From a bacterium (lineage in GTDB: Bacteria; Myxococcota_A; UBA9160; UBA4427), in NCBI GenBank assembly GCA_024742285.1, contig JANSYR010000011.1, positions 124,001 through 188,000 of the forward strand: a stretch of 64,000 nucleotides of DNA. Reading direction: 5' to 3'. Numbering within the stretch: the stretch's first letter is position 1; the number at the start of each line of letters is the position of its first letter. Of this stretch, positions 20,824-36,986 are shown piece after piece. The position numbers were made by a program, and so were the translations under genes. Below the pieces are notes generated by a model that ran no database searches, had not been told where the DNA came from, and saw only the letters and a list, made by a program, of their open reading frames with translations.

Positions 20824-23217
20824 ATGAAGACGAGACGCGTTTCACAAGAAGTTCGGGAGCGGGTGCTCGAGCGCATCCGCGGCGCCCTCGCGACCGCGGT
20901 CGCGATCGGCGTCTGTCTCGCCGCGTCGAGTGCCTTCGGCGCGACCTTCTCGGTCAACTCGACCGCCGACACCGGCGACGCCACGCCCGGGGACGGTGCC
21001 TGCTTCACCGGGCTCTTCATCCAGATCGCTCCCGGCGTCTTCGCCGGCCAGTGCACCCTGCGGGCCGCGATCGAAGAGGGAAACGCGCTCGCCGGCGCCG
21101 ACGTCGTCGAGTTCGCGGCCACGCTGCCCACGGTCGCGGGCGTCGTCGAGATCTTCCCGACCAGTCTCCTGCCGACGATCAGCGATCCGCTCACAATCGA
21201 TGGCTATACGGCGCCCGGCTACGCCCTGCTCGACCCGAATGCCAAGCCGATCATCAACATCGGCGGCGGACAGGCTGGCGGTGGGGCGGGCCTCGTCGTC
21301 ACCTCCGGCGCGACGGGCAGCGTGATCCGCGGCCTCGCGATCCACGGATTCGACCTCTCCGGCATCATCGTGACGACCGGGACGCGCGTCGACGCGGACG
21401 TCGCGATCGAAGGCTGCCACATCGGCATCTCCCGGGGCGTCTTCTACCCCGGCAACGGGGCCTACGGCATCGAGGTGCGTGCCTCCCGTTCCGTGCGGAT
21501 CGGCAAGTCGTGCGGGGCCGGGGCCTGCACGGGCCGTCGCAACGTGATCGCGAGCAGCGGGTCGCACGGGATCCGCCTGGCGAACAGCCTCTTCGTCGAC
21601 GTGAACGGCAACCTAATCGGGACGGATACGTTCGGTTCCTCGACCTTCGTCCCCTTCGGCGGCAGCACGCCGAACGGCGGTTACGGCGTCGCGCTCGTCG
21701 ACGGGTCGACCCGGAACCAGATCGGCTCTGCGCTGGAAGGCGGGGGCAACCTGATCTCGGGCAATGGCCTCGGCGGCGTGCTCATCGAGCCCGCGGTGGC
21801 GAACACCGTGATCGGGAACACGATCGGGACCAACCTCGCAGGGACTTCGGCGCTGGGGAACCAGGGAAGCGGCATCGAGATCGTCGATGGCTTCGGGCAT
21901 CTGGTGCGAAACAACCTGATCTCGGCCAACGATGGCGCCGGGATCGACTCCGAAGGGGCGAACCGGATCGACTTGAACATCGTCGGCCTGAACAGGGACC
22001 TCGATGACACGCTCGGGAACGGTTCGCACGGGATTCAGGTCGACGGGGTCGATGCGACCATCGAGGGCAACATCGTCGGCGGCAACGCCGTGAACGGGAT
22101 CCTCGCCTTTGGTGCCGATCACACGATTCTCCGGAACACGGTCGGCACCAACGCCCAGGGCGACGATCTCGGGAACGACTGGAACGGGATCATCGTGAGT
22201 GGCGCGCAGGGCGTGGTGGTCGGGGAACCCGGCCTCGGCAACATCGTCGGCCATCAGCGCATCGGCATCGGTTTCTCGTTCTCGTCCGCGCAAAACTTCG
22301 TACTGGGGAACTGCGTGGGTACGCTGCCCAGTGGGACGCCCATTCCGAACTCGATCGCGGGGGTCTACGTCTCCAACTCCGACGACGTCGAGATCGGGAC
22401 GATCGACGGCCTGGACAACGGCGGGGGTAACGTGATCGGTCACAACGCGGCGCCGGGCATCCAGCTCGTCTCCGGCGGTTCGGCGAACACGGGCAGTCGG
22501 GTTCGGGGCAACTGGATCGGCGTGCTGCCCGACGGGACGCCAGCGCCCAACGCCGACGGCGGTGTCCAGGTCCAGGGGAGTGGCAACACGATCGGCGCGG
22601 CGCTCGGCGCGCTGGACGAGATGGTCGCGGCCGCGGCCAACGTGTTCGCGCACAACGAAGACTCGGCGATCCGCGTCTTTGAATCCGCGCAGGGCACGAC
22701 CGTGCGGGGGAACGTGTTCTTCGAGAGCTTCGACTATCTGCCCGTCGATCTCGGCGACGACGGGGAGACGGACAACGACCTCGGCGATACCGACGTCGGC
22801 GCGAACCAGCTCCAGAATCTGCCGCTGATGGATCCGGTGTTCACGGAGTTCAATCCGATCACCGGCGACCTCGAGGTCCGCTATCTCGTCGACGCCGACC
22901 CGCTCGAGGCGAGCTACCCGCTCAAGGTCGATTTCTACCTGCGCACGACGCCGGACGGGCGGGCGGACGTCTACGTCGGGTCCGACCTCTACCCGGCGAC
23001 CGCTGCGAACACCTATCGACTCATCGGCGTCGTGCCCCAGATCGAGGGCGACCTCGACGGCATGCTCGTGGCGACCGCGACGGATGCGGACGGCAATACG
23101 AGCGAGCTCACCCGTCAGTCCGTTCCCGTCCCCGAGCCGGGCGCGGCCGGTATGCTCGTCGCCGGGTGCCTCGCACTCACGGGGATCACTCGCGCGCGTG
23201 ACTGCCGACGAGTGTGA
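20824..23217 (+). CDS. PEP-CTERM-anchored secreted parallel beta-helix protein
   Basis: A 797-residue exported protein. A signal peptide spans about residues 1-40 (positively charged, then ATAVAIGVCLAASSAFGA). Next comes the CTLRAAIEEGNAL motif common at the start of bacterial beta-helix surface proteins. Long repetitive stretches rich in G-N-x-I-G-T-N (NVIGTD, NLISGNGLGG, IGNTIGTNLAG) are typical of right-handed parallel beta-helices with pectate-lyase-like folds. The C-terminus has the exosortase signal: VPEPGAAG, a hydrophobic stretch and a basic tail (RARDCRR). Good ribosome-binding site GGGAGG. Bracketed by repeat copies B and C. Substrate or adhesion role unknown. Confidence 0.92.
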   Translation: MKTRRVSQEVRERVLERIRGALATAVAIGVCLAASSAFGATFSVNSTADTGDATPGDGACFTGLFIQIAPGVFAGQCTLRAAIEEGNALAGADVVEFAATLPTVAGVVEIFPTSLLPTISDPLTIDGYTAPGYALLDPNAKPIINIGGGQAGGGAGLVVTSGATGSVIRGLAIHGFDLSGIIVTTGTRVDADVAIEGCHIGISRGVFYPGNGAYGIEVRASRSVRIGKSCGAGACTGRRNVIASSGSHGIRLANSLFVDVNGNLIGTDTFGSSTFVPFGGSTPNGGYGVALVDGSTRNQIGSALEGGGNLISGNGLGGVLIEPAVANTVIGNTIGTNLAGTSALGNQGSGIEIVDGFGHLVRNNLISANDGAGIDSEGANRIDLNIVGLNRDLDDTLGNGSHGIQVDGVDATIEGNIVGGNAVNGILAFGADHTILRNTVGTNAQGDDLGNDWNGIIVSGAQGVVVGEPGLGNIVGHQRIGIGFSFSSAQNFVLGNCVGTLPSGTPIPNSIAGVYVSNSDDVEIGTIDGLDNGGGNVIGHNAAPGIQLVSGGSANTGSRVRGNWIGVLPDGTPAPNADGGVQVQGSGNTIGAALGALDEMVAAAANVFAHNEDSAIRVFESAQGTTVRGNVFFESFDYLPVDLGDDGETDNDLGDTDVGANQLQNLPLMDPVFTEFNPITGDLEVRYLVDADPLEASYPLKVDFYLRTTPDGRADVYVGSDLYPATAANTYRLIGVVPQIEGDLDGMLVATATDADGNTSELTRQSVPVPEPGAAGMLVAGCLALTGITRARDCRRV

Positions 23218-32195: not shown

Positions 32196-32990
32196 ATGAG
32201 GCCCAGCAAGAAGAGCAAGCTACGACGCCGAGCTACGGAGATCGCGAGCAGCACGGGGGCACTCTTGTTGGGAGTGCCGGTGGTGATTCTCGCTCCCGCG
32301 CTGGCGTCGTCAGAGGAGGAGACTCGGCGAGCGATGCCCTTGCACGCTCACCCCAAGGACTACGGGTCCGGGTGGGAGTGCGATCGGGGGTACCGCCTCT
32401 CGGAACAAGAAAACTGCGTCGCCGTCGAGGTGCCGGAGAACGCCTTTCTCTCGTTCGACGGACGTAGTTGGCGGTGCCACCGTGGTTACGAGAAGCGTGT
32501 CGGGACCTGCGCCAGAATCGAGGTGCCCGACAATGCCCATCTATCGGACATCGCGATGGTGGGATGGAGGTGCGACCGCGGATTTCGACATGTTGGCGCC
32601 ACGTGCGCCGAGATCAAAGTTCCAGCCAACGGATTTCTCCATGCATCGGGAAGCGAGTGGAAATGCGACCGGGGATTCGAGGCCCGCGGCAACGAGTGTG
32701 TCGCCCTGAAAGTACCCGCGTCCGGATACCTCGACGAGACTGGCAACAGCTTCTCGTGCAACTTCGGGCATCGAAAGAAAGGGGCATCGTGCATCCTGGT
32801 CGACGTCCCACCACACGGTTATCTCGTATCGACTGGAAAGGACTGGCGGTGCGAACGCGGCTTCCGAAGGACTCGCCGCGCTTGTTCGGCCATCGAAGTT
32901 CCCGCGAATGCACGACTCACGGCGTCCGGAAACGCTTGGATGTGCAATGAAGGCTTCCGTCAACGACGTCAGACCTGCGAACCCGAATAG
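32196..32990 (+). CDS. Secreted protein with tandem cysteine repeats
   Basis: A 264-residue protein: basic N-terminus, signal-peptide-like hydrophobic stretch (TGALLLGVPVVILAPALA, ending near residue 38), then six full and one partial repeat of about 31 residues. The repeat consensus is W-x-C-x-R-G-F/Y, then 5-8 residues, C-x-x-I/V-x-V-P-x-N-x-x-L, then G. Examples are WRCDRGFRHVGATC and WKCDRGFEARGNEC. Each repeat has two cysteines, probably a disulfide, so it should act outside the cytoplasm. I recognise the repeat style from proteobacterial hypothetical proteins but know no function. Confidence 0.75.
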   Translation: MRPSKKSKLRRRATEIASSTGALLLGVPVVILAPALASSEEETRRAMPLHAHPKDYGSGWECDRGYRLSEQENCVAVEVPENAFLSFDGRSWRCHRGYEKRVGTCARIEVPDNAHLSDIAMVGWRCDRGFRHVGATCAEIKVPANGFLHASGSEWKCDRGFEARGNECVALKVPASGYLDETGNSFSCNFGHRKKGASCILVDVPPHGYLVSTGKDWRCERGFRRTRRACSAIEVPANARLTASGNAWMCNEGFRQRRQTCEPE

Positions 32991-33391
32991 CCGTGGCAAC
33001 GCAACTCGAAGAGCAACGACGCCCACGAAATCGCGCTTTCTTCCGGGCGGGGCGATCGTTCTCAGACGCTGATATCCGCGGTGGCGAGAACGCGCATTGA
33101 ACGGTGGAATCGCCGTCCGATGGTTGGCGCGATGCGGTACGTGCCCCGAGCGAGGTCGATTGTGTCCGACCGCAGGCAATGCGCGCGATCGATACCGGTT
33201 CGCACGTACTGCCAACTGGAGCGAAATCCGCTCGGCCGTACGGTACGGGGATCGTGGTGCATCAAGTGAACCGCCCCGGGAATTCCGGAGACTCGTTTGG
33301 TTGAGTCCCGGCTCCTGGGGAGCCCCTCTTGCCTGGAGAGACGGAGTCGCACATCCCGTGGAGCCCATCTGACTCCGTATCGCTGGCGGTT
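32991..33391. other. Convergent intergenic region
   Basis: The rightward cysteine-repeat gene and the leftward PEP-CTERM gene converge here. A minus-strand frame ending at 33062 (segment TIDLARGTYRIAPTIGRRF) looks somewhat protein-like but has no good start or known family, so I do not call it. No clear terminator. Confidence 0.45.
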
Positions 33392-34171
33392 TCAACCGGC
33401 TCTCCGGCGAGATCGTCGGCGGTCCGTGGTGGCGTGCGCGAGGACTGCGAGGCCGCCGATTCCGGTTGCGAGCATGAGACCGGTGGCCGGTTCCGGCACG
33501 CGGACGAGGAAGTGGCCGTAGCTGCCTGCGGAGTCGTTCGTCGGCGACGCAGTCTGGGGGGAGGTGAAGCTGCATCCCGTGACCGAGCCGAAGTCGTTCC
33601 CCTGGGAGATGGACGCTTCGATGCGGGCCCATCGCGGCGAACTCTCCGTGTCGTCGGCGACACACACGCCCTGTACGAAGCCGTGGCTGCCGCAGTTCGC
33701 TCCGGTTGCGCAGCCCAGATAGGACATGAAATCCCGCACGAGTGGGAAGCCCCCGATGGAGGCGAAGCTGCTCGCGAACGAGAAGTTCGCGTAGAGGCTG
33801 TTCGCCTGGGGCCCGTTCTGCCATCCCGTGACCTCGAAGGCGGTCGCGTATCGGAAGCCCTCGAAGTCGCCGCCGGGGCCGAGTTCATCGGTTCCATCGT
33901 TGCCGACAATGTCGTCGAAGCTGCGCCCTTCGGTCACGGTCAGGTCGAGCCAATCGAGCCCCGTCGAGGCGTCATGGGTGATGTTGCGAGCGTCCGGCGA
34001 GGGGGGGAGGGTGGGGTCGTCGAACTCGAAGAGCTGGGCGCCTGCGTCGGAGAAGGCCGTGATGGACGCGAGGGCGCTGAGCGCGGCGAGTCGACTCCAC
34101 GAGCGGCGAAATCGCTTCATCGAGCTGCGGGCGTCGGCCGGGAGGGAGGAAGCGGGCTGGTGGATCGACAT
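33392..34171 (-). CDS. PEP-CTERM-anchored exported protein of unknown function
   Basis: A 259-residue exported protein. A basic N-terminus and hydrophobic stretch (LAALSALASITAFSDAGA, residues about 28-45) form the signal peptide. The body is rich in Gly, Ser and aromatic residues; ITHDASTGLDWLDLTVTEGR and GFRYATAFEV resemble a widespread PEP-CTERM-associated exported domain. The C-terminus has the exosortase signal VPEPATG, a hydrophobic segment and an Arg-rich tail (RRRSRRR). AAGGAGA precedes the chosen ATG; an internal Met at residue 18 is less well placed. Exosortase itself is not in the window. Confidence 0.88.
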   Translation of the reverse strand: MSIHQPASSLPADARSSMKRFRRSWSRLAALSALASITAFSDAGAQLFEFDDPTLPPSPDARNITHDASTGLDWLDLTVTEGRSFDDIVGNDGTDELGPGGDFEGFRYATAFEVTGWQNGPQANSLYANFSFASSFASIGGFPLVRDFMSYLGCATGANCGSHGFVQGVCVADDTESSPRWARIEASISQGNDFGSVTGCSFTSPQTASPTNDSAGSYGHFLVRVPEPATGLMLATGIGGLAVLAHATTDRRRSRRRAG

Positions 34172-34315
34172 GGGTTGGGTCTCCTTGCGCGGGCGGCTCG
34201 GCTTCGATGGAGAGATCTTCGGCCCGGATGGCGCGGCCGTCTGTTGTCGACTTCACAGAACGGTCGATTGCGACGGCCGGCGCTGCGCTCACGTTGCGCA
34301 CGAGCTTCTCCTTGC

Positions 34316-36454
34316 TCAGGGCCGTTCGGCGAAGCGTCGACCGACTTCTTCGAGCGTCGAGAAGTGAACGCCCTCGAGGCGCTTGGCGTACTCGATGAAT
34401 TCCCGCAGTCCGTCGACGTTCGCGTCGCTGTGTCCGATGATCCAGGGGTGGAGCACGAGGACCATCACCCCGCGTTGCTCGTGGATCTCGTCGAGCGTCC
34501 GCTTCCAGATGTTCGAGAGGTAGCTCGGGTCGACTCCGTCGGGAGAGCGATGCAGCCGACCTCCGACGATGTCACCGTTGTAGCCCGTCCAATCCGATGG
34601 GTACGCGAAGGGGATCTCGATCAGCGAGTCTTCGCCTTCGACGATCTCGTAGGGGTAGGGAAAGGCATCGACCGACAGATCCGCGAGGTGGCTCGGCGGG
34701 GTGATGCCTCTCGACCGCGCATAGCGCGAGACCGTGGCGATCGAGCTGTCGACGTGGAGCCCGTACTCGCCCCCGGAACTGCTCGGGCGGCCGCGTAGCC
34801 AGTCGAGGGTCTCGACGATCGAGCCGTCGAAGGAACGGTGGCCATCGCAGTAGGGCGCCCGGAACGACGCCACGGATCGGCCGAAGAGTCGCACCAGATC
34901 CTCCTGTTGGGACTCGACTTCGTCGCGCTGCGTCGCGCTGTCCGTCGCGTTCAGGAGCGGGTCGTGTCGCGACCAGCCGGGGCGGAGGAAGCCGACGCGA
35001 CCCATGTGACTCCTGGTGTGGTTTCCGATGTCGTGATTCCGGAGGCAACGCATCCAGTCCGGATCGCGCTCCGCGCCGCCGGAGCCGGCGCCGTCGAGCA
35101 TGAAGGACGCGTCGATGCCCTGTTCGACGAGCAGGTCGTGGAGCGCGCAGGTCTGGTAGGCGAAGCCCTCGGTGTCGAAGGAGAGCACGACGACGGCCTG
35201 GGCTTCGGGGGCGAACCACGTGTCGACCGGGCGGGGAGTGCGCGCGCCTTCGAGGTGGGCCGAAGTGAGGCGACGCATCTCTGCGTACTCGGGGTGCAAA
35301 GACGAGAGCGTCTCGTGCATGTGGAAGAGATAGTAGCCGGCGCCGGCGCTTCCCCGGACGGACCAGCCGGAGCGGAACGCGAATCCGCGCGGCGCAGCGA
35401 AGTGGTAGAGCCAGTGCGCGTAGTGCCCGCGGTTCGCCCGCCCGCCGATCGCGTACGTCTCGTCGGGGGACCAGTCCTCCGGGACCGCCCGCCACCAGAA
35501 GGTCTGCGTGTAGTACCCGCCGTCGGGCCAGGGCCATCCCTCGACGAAGTCCGGACGCGTCTTCCAGTTCTCCGGAACGGCGTACTCCCAGAAGTAGTGT
35601 GCGTAGTGGCCGACGTCGTCTCCGTCGACGCGGTAGTAGTCCTGGCCGAGCGCCGTGACCTCGTCGTCGTAGCTCTTCCAGTTCTCGGGGATCGCGCGAA
35701 GCCAGAGCGTCTGCTCGTAGTAGCCGCCGCGACGATCGGGCCAACCCATGAAGGCATCTCTCGAGGCCCAGGCGTCGGGCACGGCGAGGCCCCACAGGAA
35801 GAATCGGTAGTACCCGAGCCGGTCCCTGGATCCGAGCTTCCAATCGCGCTTCGCCCAGTTCTTCGCGACGGCGCCGCGCCAGAACCACCACTGGTAGTAG
35901 GAAAGGCCGCTCACGTCTCCGCTCGGCCCCCAGGCAGGACCCCAACCATCGGGCACGGCCTCCAGCCAGAACGTCTGCGTGTAGTAGCCCCCTTCGGGCA
36001 GATACCAGCCGGGCATCGCCGAGGTCCACGCCCAGTTCTCCGGTACCGCATGGAGCCAGAGCGTCTGCGTGAAGTAGCCGCCGCCGTCGGGCTGGTACCA
36101 GCCTTCCATGGCCGGGACCGGGCTCCAGTTCTCGGGGACCGCGCGCTGCCAGAACGCGTTCCTCACGGAGACGGCACAGCTACCGGGAATCTCGCGCGGC
36201 ACGATCTGGTTCCAGAACCAATCCTGGTAGCGCGGCTCGCGGGCGACCTGATCCCACCACGCGCGATACTCGTCGGGGTTCTCCGCCGGGCTCAGGTTGC
36301 AGGCGAGATGGCCTTCGTTTTCCGGTTCCGGATAAGGGGTCGCAAAGGCGCGCTCGGCGGTCGCGAGCTGCGCGACGACGAGGAGGAGCGACAGGATCCA
36401 CACGGCGCGAAGAGGGCCGCGCGGACATCGAGGACTTCGATCGGGATCGGTCAT
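34316..36454 (-). CDS. Exported polysaccharide deacetylase with Trp-rich repeat region
   Basis: A 712-residue exported protein. The signal peptide ends near residue 38 (VWILSLLLVVAQLATAERAF). Residues about 60-360 hold nine units built around A-V-P-E-N-W (for example HAVPENW, EAVPDGW, GAVAKNW, RAIPENW, RAVPEDW), each preceded by an aromatic GGYYTQTFW-like strand. Residues about 420-712 form a NodB-type deacetylase: VVLSFDTEG (metal Asp), HDIGNHTRSH (HxxxH), FRAPYCDGH and LVLHPW. The start is the ATG after AAGGAG, not an upstream in-frame Met. It probably de-N-acetylates an exopolysaccharide at the cell surface. Confidence 0.87.
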   Translation of the reverse strand: MTDPDRSPRCPRGPLRAVWILSLLLVVAQLATAERAFATPYPEPENEGHLACNLSPAENPDEYRAWWDQVAREPRYQDWFWNQIVPREIPGSCAVSVRNAFWQRAVPENWSPVPAMEGWYQPDGGGYFTQTLWLHAVPENWAWTSAMPGWYLPEGGYYTQTFWLEAVPDGWGPAWGPSGDVSGLSYYQWWFWRGAVAKNWAKRDWKLGSRDRLGYYRFFLWGLAVPDAWASRDAFMGWPDRRGGYYEQTLWLRAIPENWKSYDDEVTALGQDYYRVDGDDVGHYAHYFWEYAVPENWKTRPDFVEGWPWPDGGYYTQTFWWRAVPEDWSPDETYAIGGRANRGHYAHWLYHFAAPRGFAFRSGWSVRGSAGAGYYLFHMHETLSSLHPEYAEMRRLTSAHLEGARTPRPVDTWFAPEAQAVVVLSFDTEGFAYQTCALHDLLVEQGIDASFMLDGAGSGGAERDPDWMRCLRNHDIGNHTRSHMGRVGFLRPGWSRHDPLLNATDSATQRDEVESQQEDLVRLFGRSVASFRAPYCDGHRSFDGSIVETLDWLRGRPSSSGGEYGLHVDSSIATVSRYARSRGITPPSHLADLSVDAFPYPYEIVEGEDSLIEIPFAYPSDWTGYNGDIVGGRLHRSPDGVDPSYLSNIWKRTLDEIHEQRGVMVLVLHPWIIGHSDANVDGLREFIEYAKRLEGVHFSTLEEVGRRFAERP

Positions 36455-36986
36455 GACGGGCAACTCCTTCGAGAGGACACCCGAAGCGTCGTCCGGTTCG
36501 GCGTGGCGCACCGTGAACCGCTTCACGCAAGCGCGAGGATCCGAGACCGGTCGGTGTCGCCCCACTCGGCGTCGCGCACCGAGCGGGGCGTCGGCGCTTC
36601 GTTGGGGCGACGGCGCACGCCCGCGCGCCGATCGGTCTCGAGGAGGCGTGGCAGGCCCATCGCGTGCACTCGGGCTACCTGGTGCTCGCCTCGTTCATGT
36701 CCTTCGTGCCGCCCTGCAACGGCGAGGATCAGCGCGCCTTCTCAGATGCGTTCCGCGATCGTGCGATCGAGGCGATGGACGACCTCGGGACGGCCGAGGC
36801 GATGCGCGAGGCGTTGGCCTGACGGCCAGGAGCCCCGTTCGTCCGCGAAGGAGAAGAGGAGCAAAGGAGCGAAGGCTCGTGGAATTCCGCGATGGGCGCG
36901 CATCCGCTCCTCTCGCCGTTCGGATATGTTCCACCCATCGGCTGTGGGTCGCTCCGCCACGAACCAACCCGCCCGAAGGAGACGTG
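36455..36986. other. Intergenic region with a possible gene remnant
   Basis: Divergent space between the deacetylase and oxidoreductase genes. On the plus strand one frame ending at 36822 gives LEEAWQAHRVHSGYLVLASF and AFSDAFRDRAIEAMDDLG, which is protein-like, but it lacks a good start and family match. It may be the 3' end of a decayed gene. Promoters for both flanking genes should lie here. Confidence 0.4.

Follow-up and report, generated by a model that had tools for sequence, protein, structure and literature searches.

A divergent NodB-type deacetylase domain preceded by an undescribed array of aromatic repeats

Members of the CE4/NodB superfamily (Polysacc_deac_1, PF01522) possess a metal-binding Asp-His-His set together with catalytic motifs, and binding modules are often joined to their catalytic domains. 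Deacetylases of the XrtA type carry DUF3473, and an amide-acting branch of CE4 includes cyclic imidases. One publication (PMC1569441) counts PF01522 proteins with those that lie near EpsH or have been linked to exopolysaccharide synthesis, and describes most PEP-CTERM genes as single-gene operons. The gene analysed here lies in a window of 64,000 nucleotides (the whole stretch of DNA that was studied) and encodes a protein with a CE4/NodB-type domain at its C-terminus and a long tryptophan-rich repeat array in front of it.

The open reading frame spans positions 34316-36454 on the minus strand (712 codons, ATG start, no internal stop). Taken at its longest, the ORF would extend to an upstream GTG (749 aa), and a simple codon-model gene caller, whose starts are rough, placed the start at 36526; it is not certain that the ATG at 36454 is the start of a 712-residue protein. 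If it is, residues 1-38 (36341..36454, minus strand) are read from the translation as a probable Sec signal peptide, with a basic start, a hydrophobic stretch AVWILSLLLVVAQLA and A-F-A before T39, all recognized by inspection. The array of ten units (residues 75-373; 35336..36232, minus strand) was delimited by self-comparison, the unit profile and the unit list. It is followed by a link to the catalytic domain (residues 374-405; 35240..35335, minus strand; inspection of the translation), which starts directly behind the array with YYLFHMHET, possibly a partial eleventh unit as judged from its letters. The deacetylase domain occupies residues 406-712 and, with the stop codon, positions 34316..35239 (minus strand; PF01522 match and motif positions). 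The protein terminates with EEVGRRFAERP and has no PEP-CTERM tail, and no PEP-CTERM profile was listed for it in the Pfam and NCBIfam scans. Base composition gives no sign of horizontal transfer (GC 0.671 for the gene vs 0.661 for the window). A sigma-70-type promoter and a terminator were looked for in 33200-36900 and neither was found; a sigma-54-like pattern has 7 matches in the window vs 6.8 expected, none of them in 33200-36900.

The assignment of the C-terminal part to the NodB-type deacetylases, made earlier from the translation, is borne out by the profile search: behind the array, PF01522 matches residues 419-537 with an E-value of 3.6e-8 and 33.9 bits (cut-off 23.1). The motifs are located at positions 425 (SFDTEG), 478 (NHTRSH), 531 (FRAPY), 567 (HVDSS) and 668 (LHP), and an alignment of the protein with four distant relatives (n=5) shows no change at His 479, His 483, Arg 532 and His-Pro 669-670. 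The first motif reads FDTE as compared to the canonical FDDG, with Glu where canonical members have Asp; MAFFT misaligned this stretch, and the comparison by eye gave FDFD, FDVD and IDDM in the relatives.

Queried over its full length, the protein found matches in 5 of 60 relatives, the array's own genome included, and the other four matches cover only residues 590-711 (best E-value 9.0e-10, 38% identity over 119 residues). When the domain alone was the query, 8 of the 282 phylum genomes had a match, again counting its own, the other seven with E-values of 2.3e-7 or weaker. Identity to the plasmid and genome relatives is 24-31% over the aligned domain and up to 41% over short stretches; four relatives are encoded on plasmids (24-30% identity), and a single match was found in phage records (E-value 3e-3). 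The enzyme is common in kind, yet divergent. In this phylum scan with the domain alone, the best match from another genome (L030, G307 contig C503, 237-4937 on the plus strand; E-value 2.3e-7) is a 1566-residue ORF with a deacetylase-like start followed by more than 1000 residues.

The best relative of solved structure is 3rxz (E-value 1.1e-4, residues 595-704). Two of the four plasmid relatives were inspected for their neighbors: one adjoins an amidase gene and the second adjoins creatininase and arginase genes, in both cases with ABC transporters nearby. In view of the 3rxz match and these neighbors, the domain is possibly part of a superfamily branch with other amides as substrates. The substrates would then be small cyclic molecules (amides or imides) or amides of another kind, not polysaccharide, with the array serving as a tether to a surface or a partner; the likeness by eye of FDTE to the FDFD and FDVD of relatives agrees with such an assignment. 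However, the probable signal peptide and the 300-residue aromatic array suggest an extracellular polymer rather than a small intracellular substrate, and we consider this explanation unlikely. Literature searches returned no publication that joins a polysaccharide deacetylase and a cyclic imidase.

The Trp/Tyr-rich repeat array that the earlier note had described at the N-terminus is clearly present. Comparison of residues 41-405 with themselves yields a peak at lag 30 (mean BLOSUM62 score -0.21), above all 200 residue shuffles (best -0.45), which indicates that the array is not due to chance; the second-best lag, 31, scores just under the best shuffle (-0.46). Residues 97-385 (289 residues) contain 29 Trp, 24 Tyr and no Cys, and the Trp fraction of the protein is the highest among the genes predicted by the codon model. 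At the DNA level the array appears as a 53-base family; of its seven copies, six share 64-83% identity with the reference copy. Tandem Repeats Finder reports 2.1 copies of 93 bases. The profile detects ten units, each 22-38 residues long, with a consensus of about 30 residues (approximately YYxQTFWxxAVPENWxxxxxxxGWxxPDGG) and a core of Y-Y, F/L-W, A-V-P, W and Gly; the most regular columns are Trp in column 7, Ala and Pro (each 9/10) and Trp in column 15 (8/10). The first unit is degenerate (IVPREI) and the tenth divergent (AAPRGF). The strict motif AVPxxW occurs at six sites, three of them with the exact AVPENW, and a relaxed search found nine sites by adding the variants AVAKNW, AAPRGF and IVPREI; a tenth site, AIPENW, falls outside the relaxed pattern and is present in the unit list. 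Thus, the earlier count of nine AVPENW repeats holds for the number of fair units, to which one degenerate unit is added at the front, but not for the literal motif.

Codon usage in the aligned units suggests that the array is maintained at the protein level. The Ala column uses GCG (4), GCC (4) and GCT (1), the Val column four codons, the Pro column two and the Gly columns three and four. Such silent differences at Ala, Val, Pro and Gly suggest selection on the protein rather than recent copying, and the units may therefore be old and maintained in these columns. This argument does not extend to the aromatic residues, because the conserved Tyr and Phe columns use only TAC and TTC, with no silent change, and Trp has a single codon; the GC3 of the array is 0.89. 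Over 36 pairs from the nine units after the degenerate first (20 columns), pS is 0.52 and pN 0.44, values close enough to indicate that the remainder of the unit is loosely held.

Searches for further copies of the array led back to a single genome. The array protein as a query matched only its own genome among 79 genomes of the order, the unit profile did so among 282 genomes sampled from the phylum (31-position profile, at most 28 first-look candidates scored per genome), and the two-unit profile among 90 genomes of the class (at most 70 candidates scored). In that genome the unit profile finds ten places, all in the deacetylase gene and none elsewhere. A tblastn search of the array with E-values up to 1 was negative for both 72,556 plasmid and 50,697 phage records. 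An exact one-unit pattern, which matches 5 of the 10 units here, was found at five loci of the GTDB contigs, a set from which records near the window's own genome are possibly left out; each locus has one match and none is an array. Applied to the matching frames, the unit profile reported one unit in each of four of these loci, and the four frames, when read, are not arrays; the fifth locus (L017) has no row among the unit-profile matches listed. Loci L020 (minus strand) and L004 show two stretches each by the unit profile, with E-values above 2. The one-unit pattern has no match in viral contigs, and no relative was confirmed among 14 pattern matches in a whole-protein scan of genome contigs or among 8 in an array scan of viral contigs. 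Within the scope of these scans, the array looks like an orphan repeat.

The array is also undescribed in the sequence libraries searched. With the whole protein as a query, neither Pfam nor NCBIfam gave a match over the array, PHROGs gave none anywhere in the protein, and PDB sequences matched solely over the deacetylase part; the array by itself retrieved no Pfam family at E-values up to 10. In PDB sequences, profiles of one and of two units as well as a typed consensus found only chance-level matches, of which a peptidoglycan amidase effector family (best E-value 0.026), a DNA polymerase (0.33) and a plant virus coat protein (1.2) came from the profiles. The typed consensus further matched 1-cysPrx_C (E-value 4.8e-4 over 11 residues, 20.5 bits with a cut-off of 21.1), a nucleotidase model (E-value 0.0024 over 19 residues) and PHROGs entries (E-value 0.18 or weaker); these too were taken as chance, since they involve short pieces of an idealized sequence and the real array has no Pfam match. 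Literature searches found no publication on AVPENW or on a polysaccharide deacetylase with a tryptophan-rich repeat, and the literature listings, as far as their text extends, contain nothing on an architecture of repeat array plus deacetylase. The earlier note knew of no described domain with this repeat, and this stands, as no credible match was found in Pfam, NCBIfam, PHROGs or PDB sequences, and the profile search did not align the repeat to a known carbohydrate- or cell-wall-binding family. The structure prediction that had been proposed alongside it yielded models too poor to reveal a fold: AlphaFold2 gave a mean pLDDT of 40.1 for the whole protein alone, with one strand in 9 of 10 units that is not trustworthy, and 29.6 for residues 68-244 (units 1-6) combined with a second row of residues 245-403 (units 7-10 and the link).

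A nearby gene of the window, at positions 32196-32990 (plus strand), encodes a protein of 264 residues in which about six Cys-pair units (VPxNAxL...WxCxxGF......C) can be made out. It matches PF12946 (EGF_MSP1_1, E-value 3.8e-8), i.e. EGF-like repeats in a bacterium. By eye, its VPEN spacing and unit length are similar to those of the array, which is in line with the possibility that the array belongs to a known type of repeat (choline-binding, CBM5/12 or EGF-like Cys repeat) and has diverged too far for sequence searches to show it. Against this, profile comparison of the two repeats gave scores of 9.9, 9.0 and 10.5 for one, two and three copies, with E-values of 0.045 (one copy) and 0.33 (two or three), and the two-copy score lies under the 95% level of 100 column shuffles made for that version only (median 6.0, 95% level 9.5, largest 12.7); kinship with the Cys-repeat protein was rejected on this comparison. 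A likeness to CBM_5_12 (PF02839) noticed by eye was likewise discarded at the level of profile searches: there is no profile match, and few genomes of the phylum contain the family, which is matched in 3 of 235 (one over the cut-off) and absent from the array's genome. Given also that the profile search obtained no Pfam family for the array at E-values up to 10, we regard a diverged known repeat as distinctly improbable. That the YY-FW-AVPENW-GW unit represents a repeat domain without described relatives and a new class of aromatic glycan-binding repeat, which originated in one lineage and became joined to a deacetylase, is a doubtful proposal.

The analysis of genomic neighborhood revealed a PEP-CTERM-type protein (TIGR02595, PF07589) encoded at 33392..34171 on the minus strand, 144 bases downstream of the deacetylase gene. 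Its match to TIGR02595 is just over the cut-off (16.5 bits; cut-off 16) and that to PF07589 is under it (15.8 bits; cut-off 20.7). Eight further genes of the window were scanned: seven matched (beta-helix, citrate synthase, zinc-type dehydrogenase, isochorismatase, acyl-CoA dehydrogenase with doubled domains, P450 and amidohydrolase) and one did not. No polysaccharide synthesis or export family was matched among these scanned neighbors, which are a minority of the window genes. A helix-turn-helix protein and a spermidine-synthase-like protein are also encoded nearby. The beta-helix protein, of 784 residues and encoded at 20863-23217 (plus strand), matches PF13229 (E-value 6.7e-9) and is possibly surface-exposed.

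Four exosortase matches over the cut-off were found in the genome, all on other contigs, as are two further deacetylase genes. One of these deacetylases adjoins a Poly_export gene (E-value 1.8e-21) and resembles part of PgaB, below the cut-off (73.9 of 321.9 bits). The other, a 549-residue NodB-like deacetylase (L039, G000 contig C2), is encoded beside a PEP-CTERM pentapeptide-repeat protein, so that deacetylase and PEP-CTERM genes are adjacent twice in the genome, with different deacetylases; no inference is drawn from two cases. Among the 79 genomes of the order, 14 others have weak matches to the PEP-CTERM neighbor, several of them confined to its C-terminal tail, and all 14 lack the array. 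There is no sign of the two genes travelling together, although matches this weak would not rule it out. A functional association of the PEP-CTERM-type gene with the deacetylase is unproven.

The earlier note had taken the adjoining PEP-CTERM gene as a hint of a role in surface or exopolysaccharide assembly. The PEP-CTERM-type neighbor itself is confirmed, and the listing of PF01522 proteins among those near EpsH or linked to exopolysaccharide synthesis, in the publication cited above, favors such a role. On the other side, the exosortases are encoded elsewhere, no polysaccharide gene was found among the scanned neighbors, and the deacetylase that does adjoin an export gene is encoded on another contig; the same publication weakens the argument from adjacency, in that PEP-CTERM genes are mostly single-gene operons. 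The link of the deacetylase to exopolysaccharide is consequently weak. The PEP-CTERM-type gene could also be accommodated if the array were a self-assembling or protein-binding scaffold of a surface layer or biofilm matrix instead of a sugar-binding module, and its regular aromatic units and mixed charge (residues 97-385 contain 24 Lys and Arg and 32 Asp and Glu) are compatible with this. However, nothing positive speaks for a scaffold, which moreover would not need to be fused to an enzyme, and we think it improbable.

Our preferred reading, which we put forward tentatively and which falls a little short of being probable, is that of an exported deacetylase kept on its polymer by the aromatic array. 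The signal peptide would direct the protein across the inner membrane, and the C-terminal CE4-type domain would bind a metal and remove acetyl groups from an acetylated polymer (or cut a related amide). Anchoring on that polymer would fall to the array at the N-terminus, with Trp and Tyr side chains of each of its roughly ten aromatic units stacking on sugar rings and many weak unit contacts together holding the enzyme in place by avidity. The data show the array, silent codon variation over part of its core, the domain match and most of the motifs, while the export of the protein, its use of a metal, its substrate and its binding to glycans with avidity are steps that we infer; the array may bind glycans, to judge by its amino acid composition. 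In favor of this reading are the PF01522 match, the invariant His, Arg and His-Pro residues, the lag-30 similarity, the silent codons, the Trp/Tyr content and the frequent occurrence of binding modules fused to CE4 domains. It is weakened by the lack of a match between the array and any carbohydrate-binding family, by codon evidence that is silent on the aromatics, with pN close to pS, by the absence of a polysaccharide gene among the scanned neighbors, by the confinement of the array to one genome, and by the divergence of the catalytic domain, with FDTE in place of FDDG. Should the array bind glycan, an undescribed repeat module would join the known means by which carbohydrate-active enzymes stay on insoluble polymers, and the ten regular units would be convenient for measuring binding as a function of unit number. 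Otherwise, the array is nonetheless an orphan aromatic repeat, with a fold unexplained by the libraries searched.

In comparison with known systems, the protein shares with Polysacc_deac_1 members (PF01522, CE4/NodB) a match above the cut-off and the His-x3-His, RAPY-like and LHP motifs, and differs from them in the FDTE of the first motif, the low identity to relatives (24-31%) and the undescribed array in front. With the XrtA deacetylase (TIGR03006) it has in common a genome with exosortases and a sub-threshold DUF3473 match (12.1 vs 29.6 bits); however, TIGR03006 was not listed for it in the NCBIfam scan at E-values up to 1, and no export gene was found beside it among the scanned neighbors. 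The short aromatic unit and the Y/W spacing recall CBM_5_12 (PF02839) and other aromatic modules by eye only, whereas the array consists of ten tandem 30-residue units with no match at E-values up to 10. To the PEP-CTERM/exosortase system it is related by the neighboring PEP-CTERM-type gene and the four exosortase matches in the genome, and, in contrast to PEP-CTERM proteins, the deacetylase itself ends without a C-terminal PEP, transmembrane helix and basic tail.
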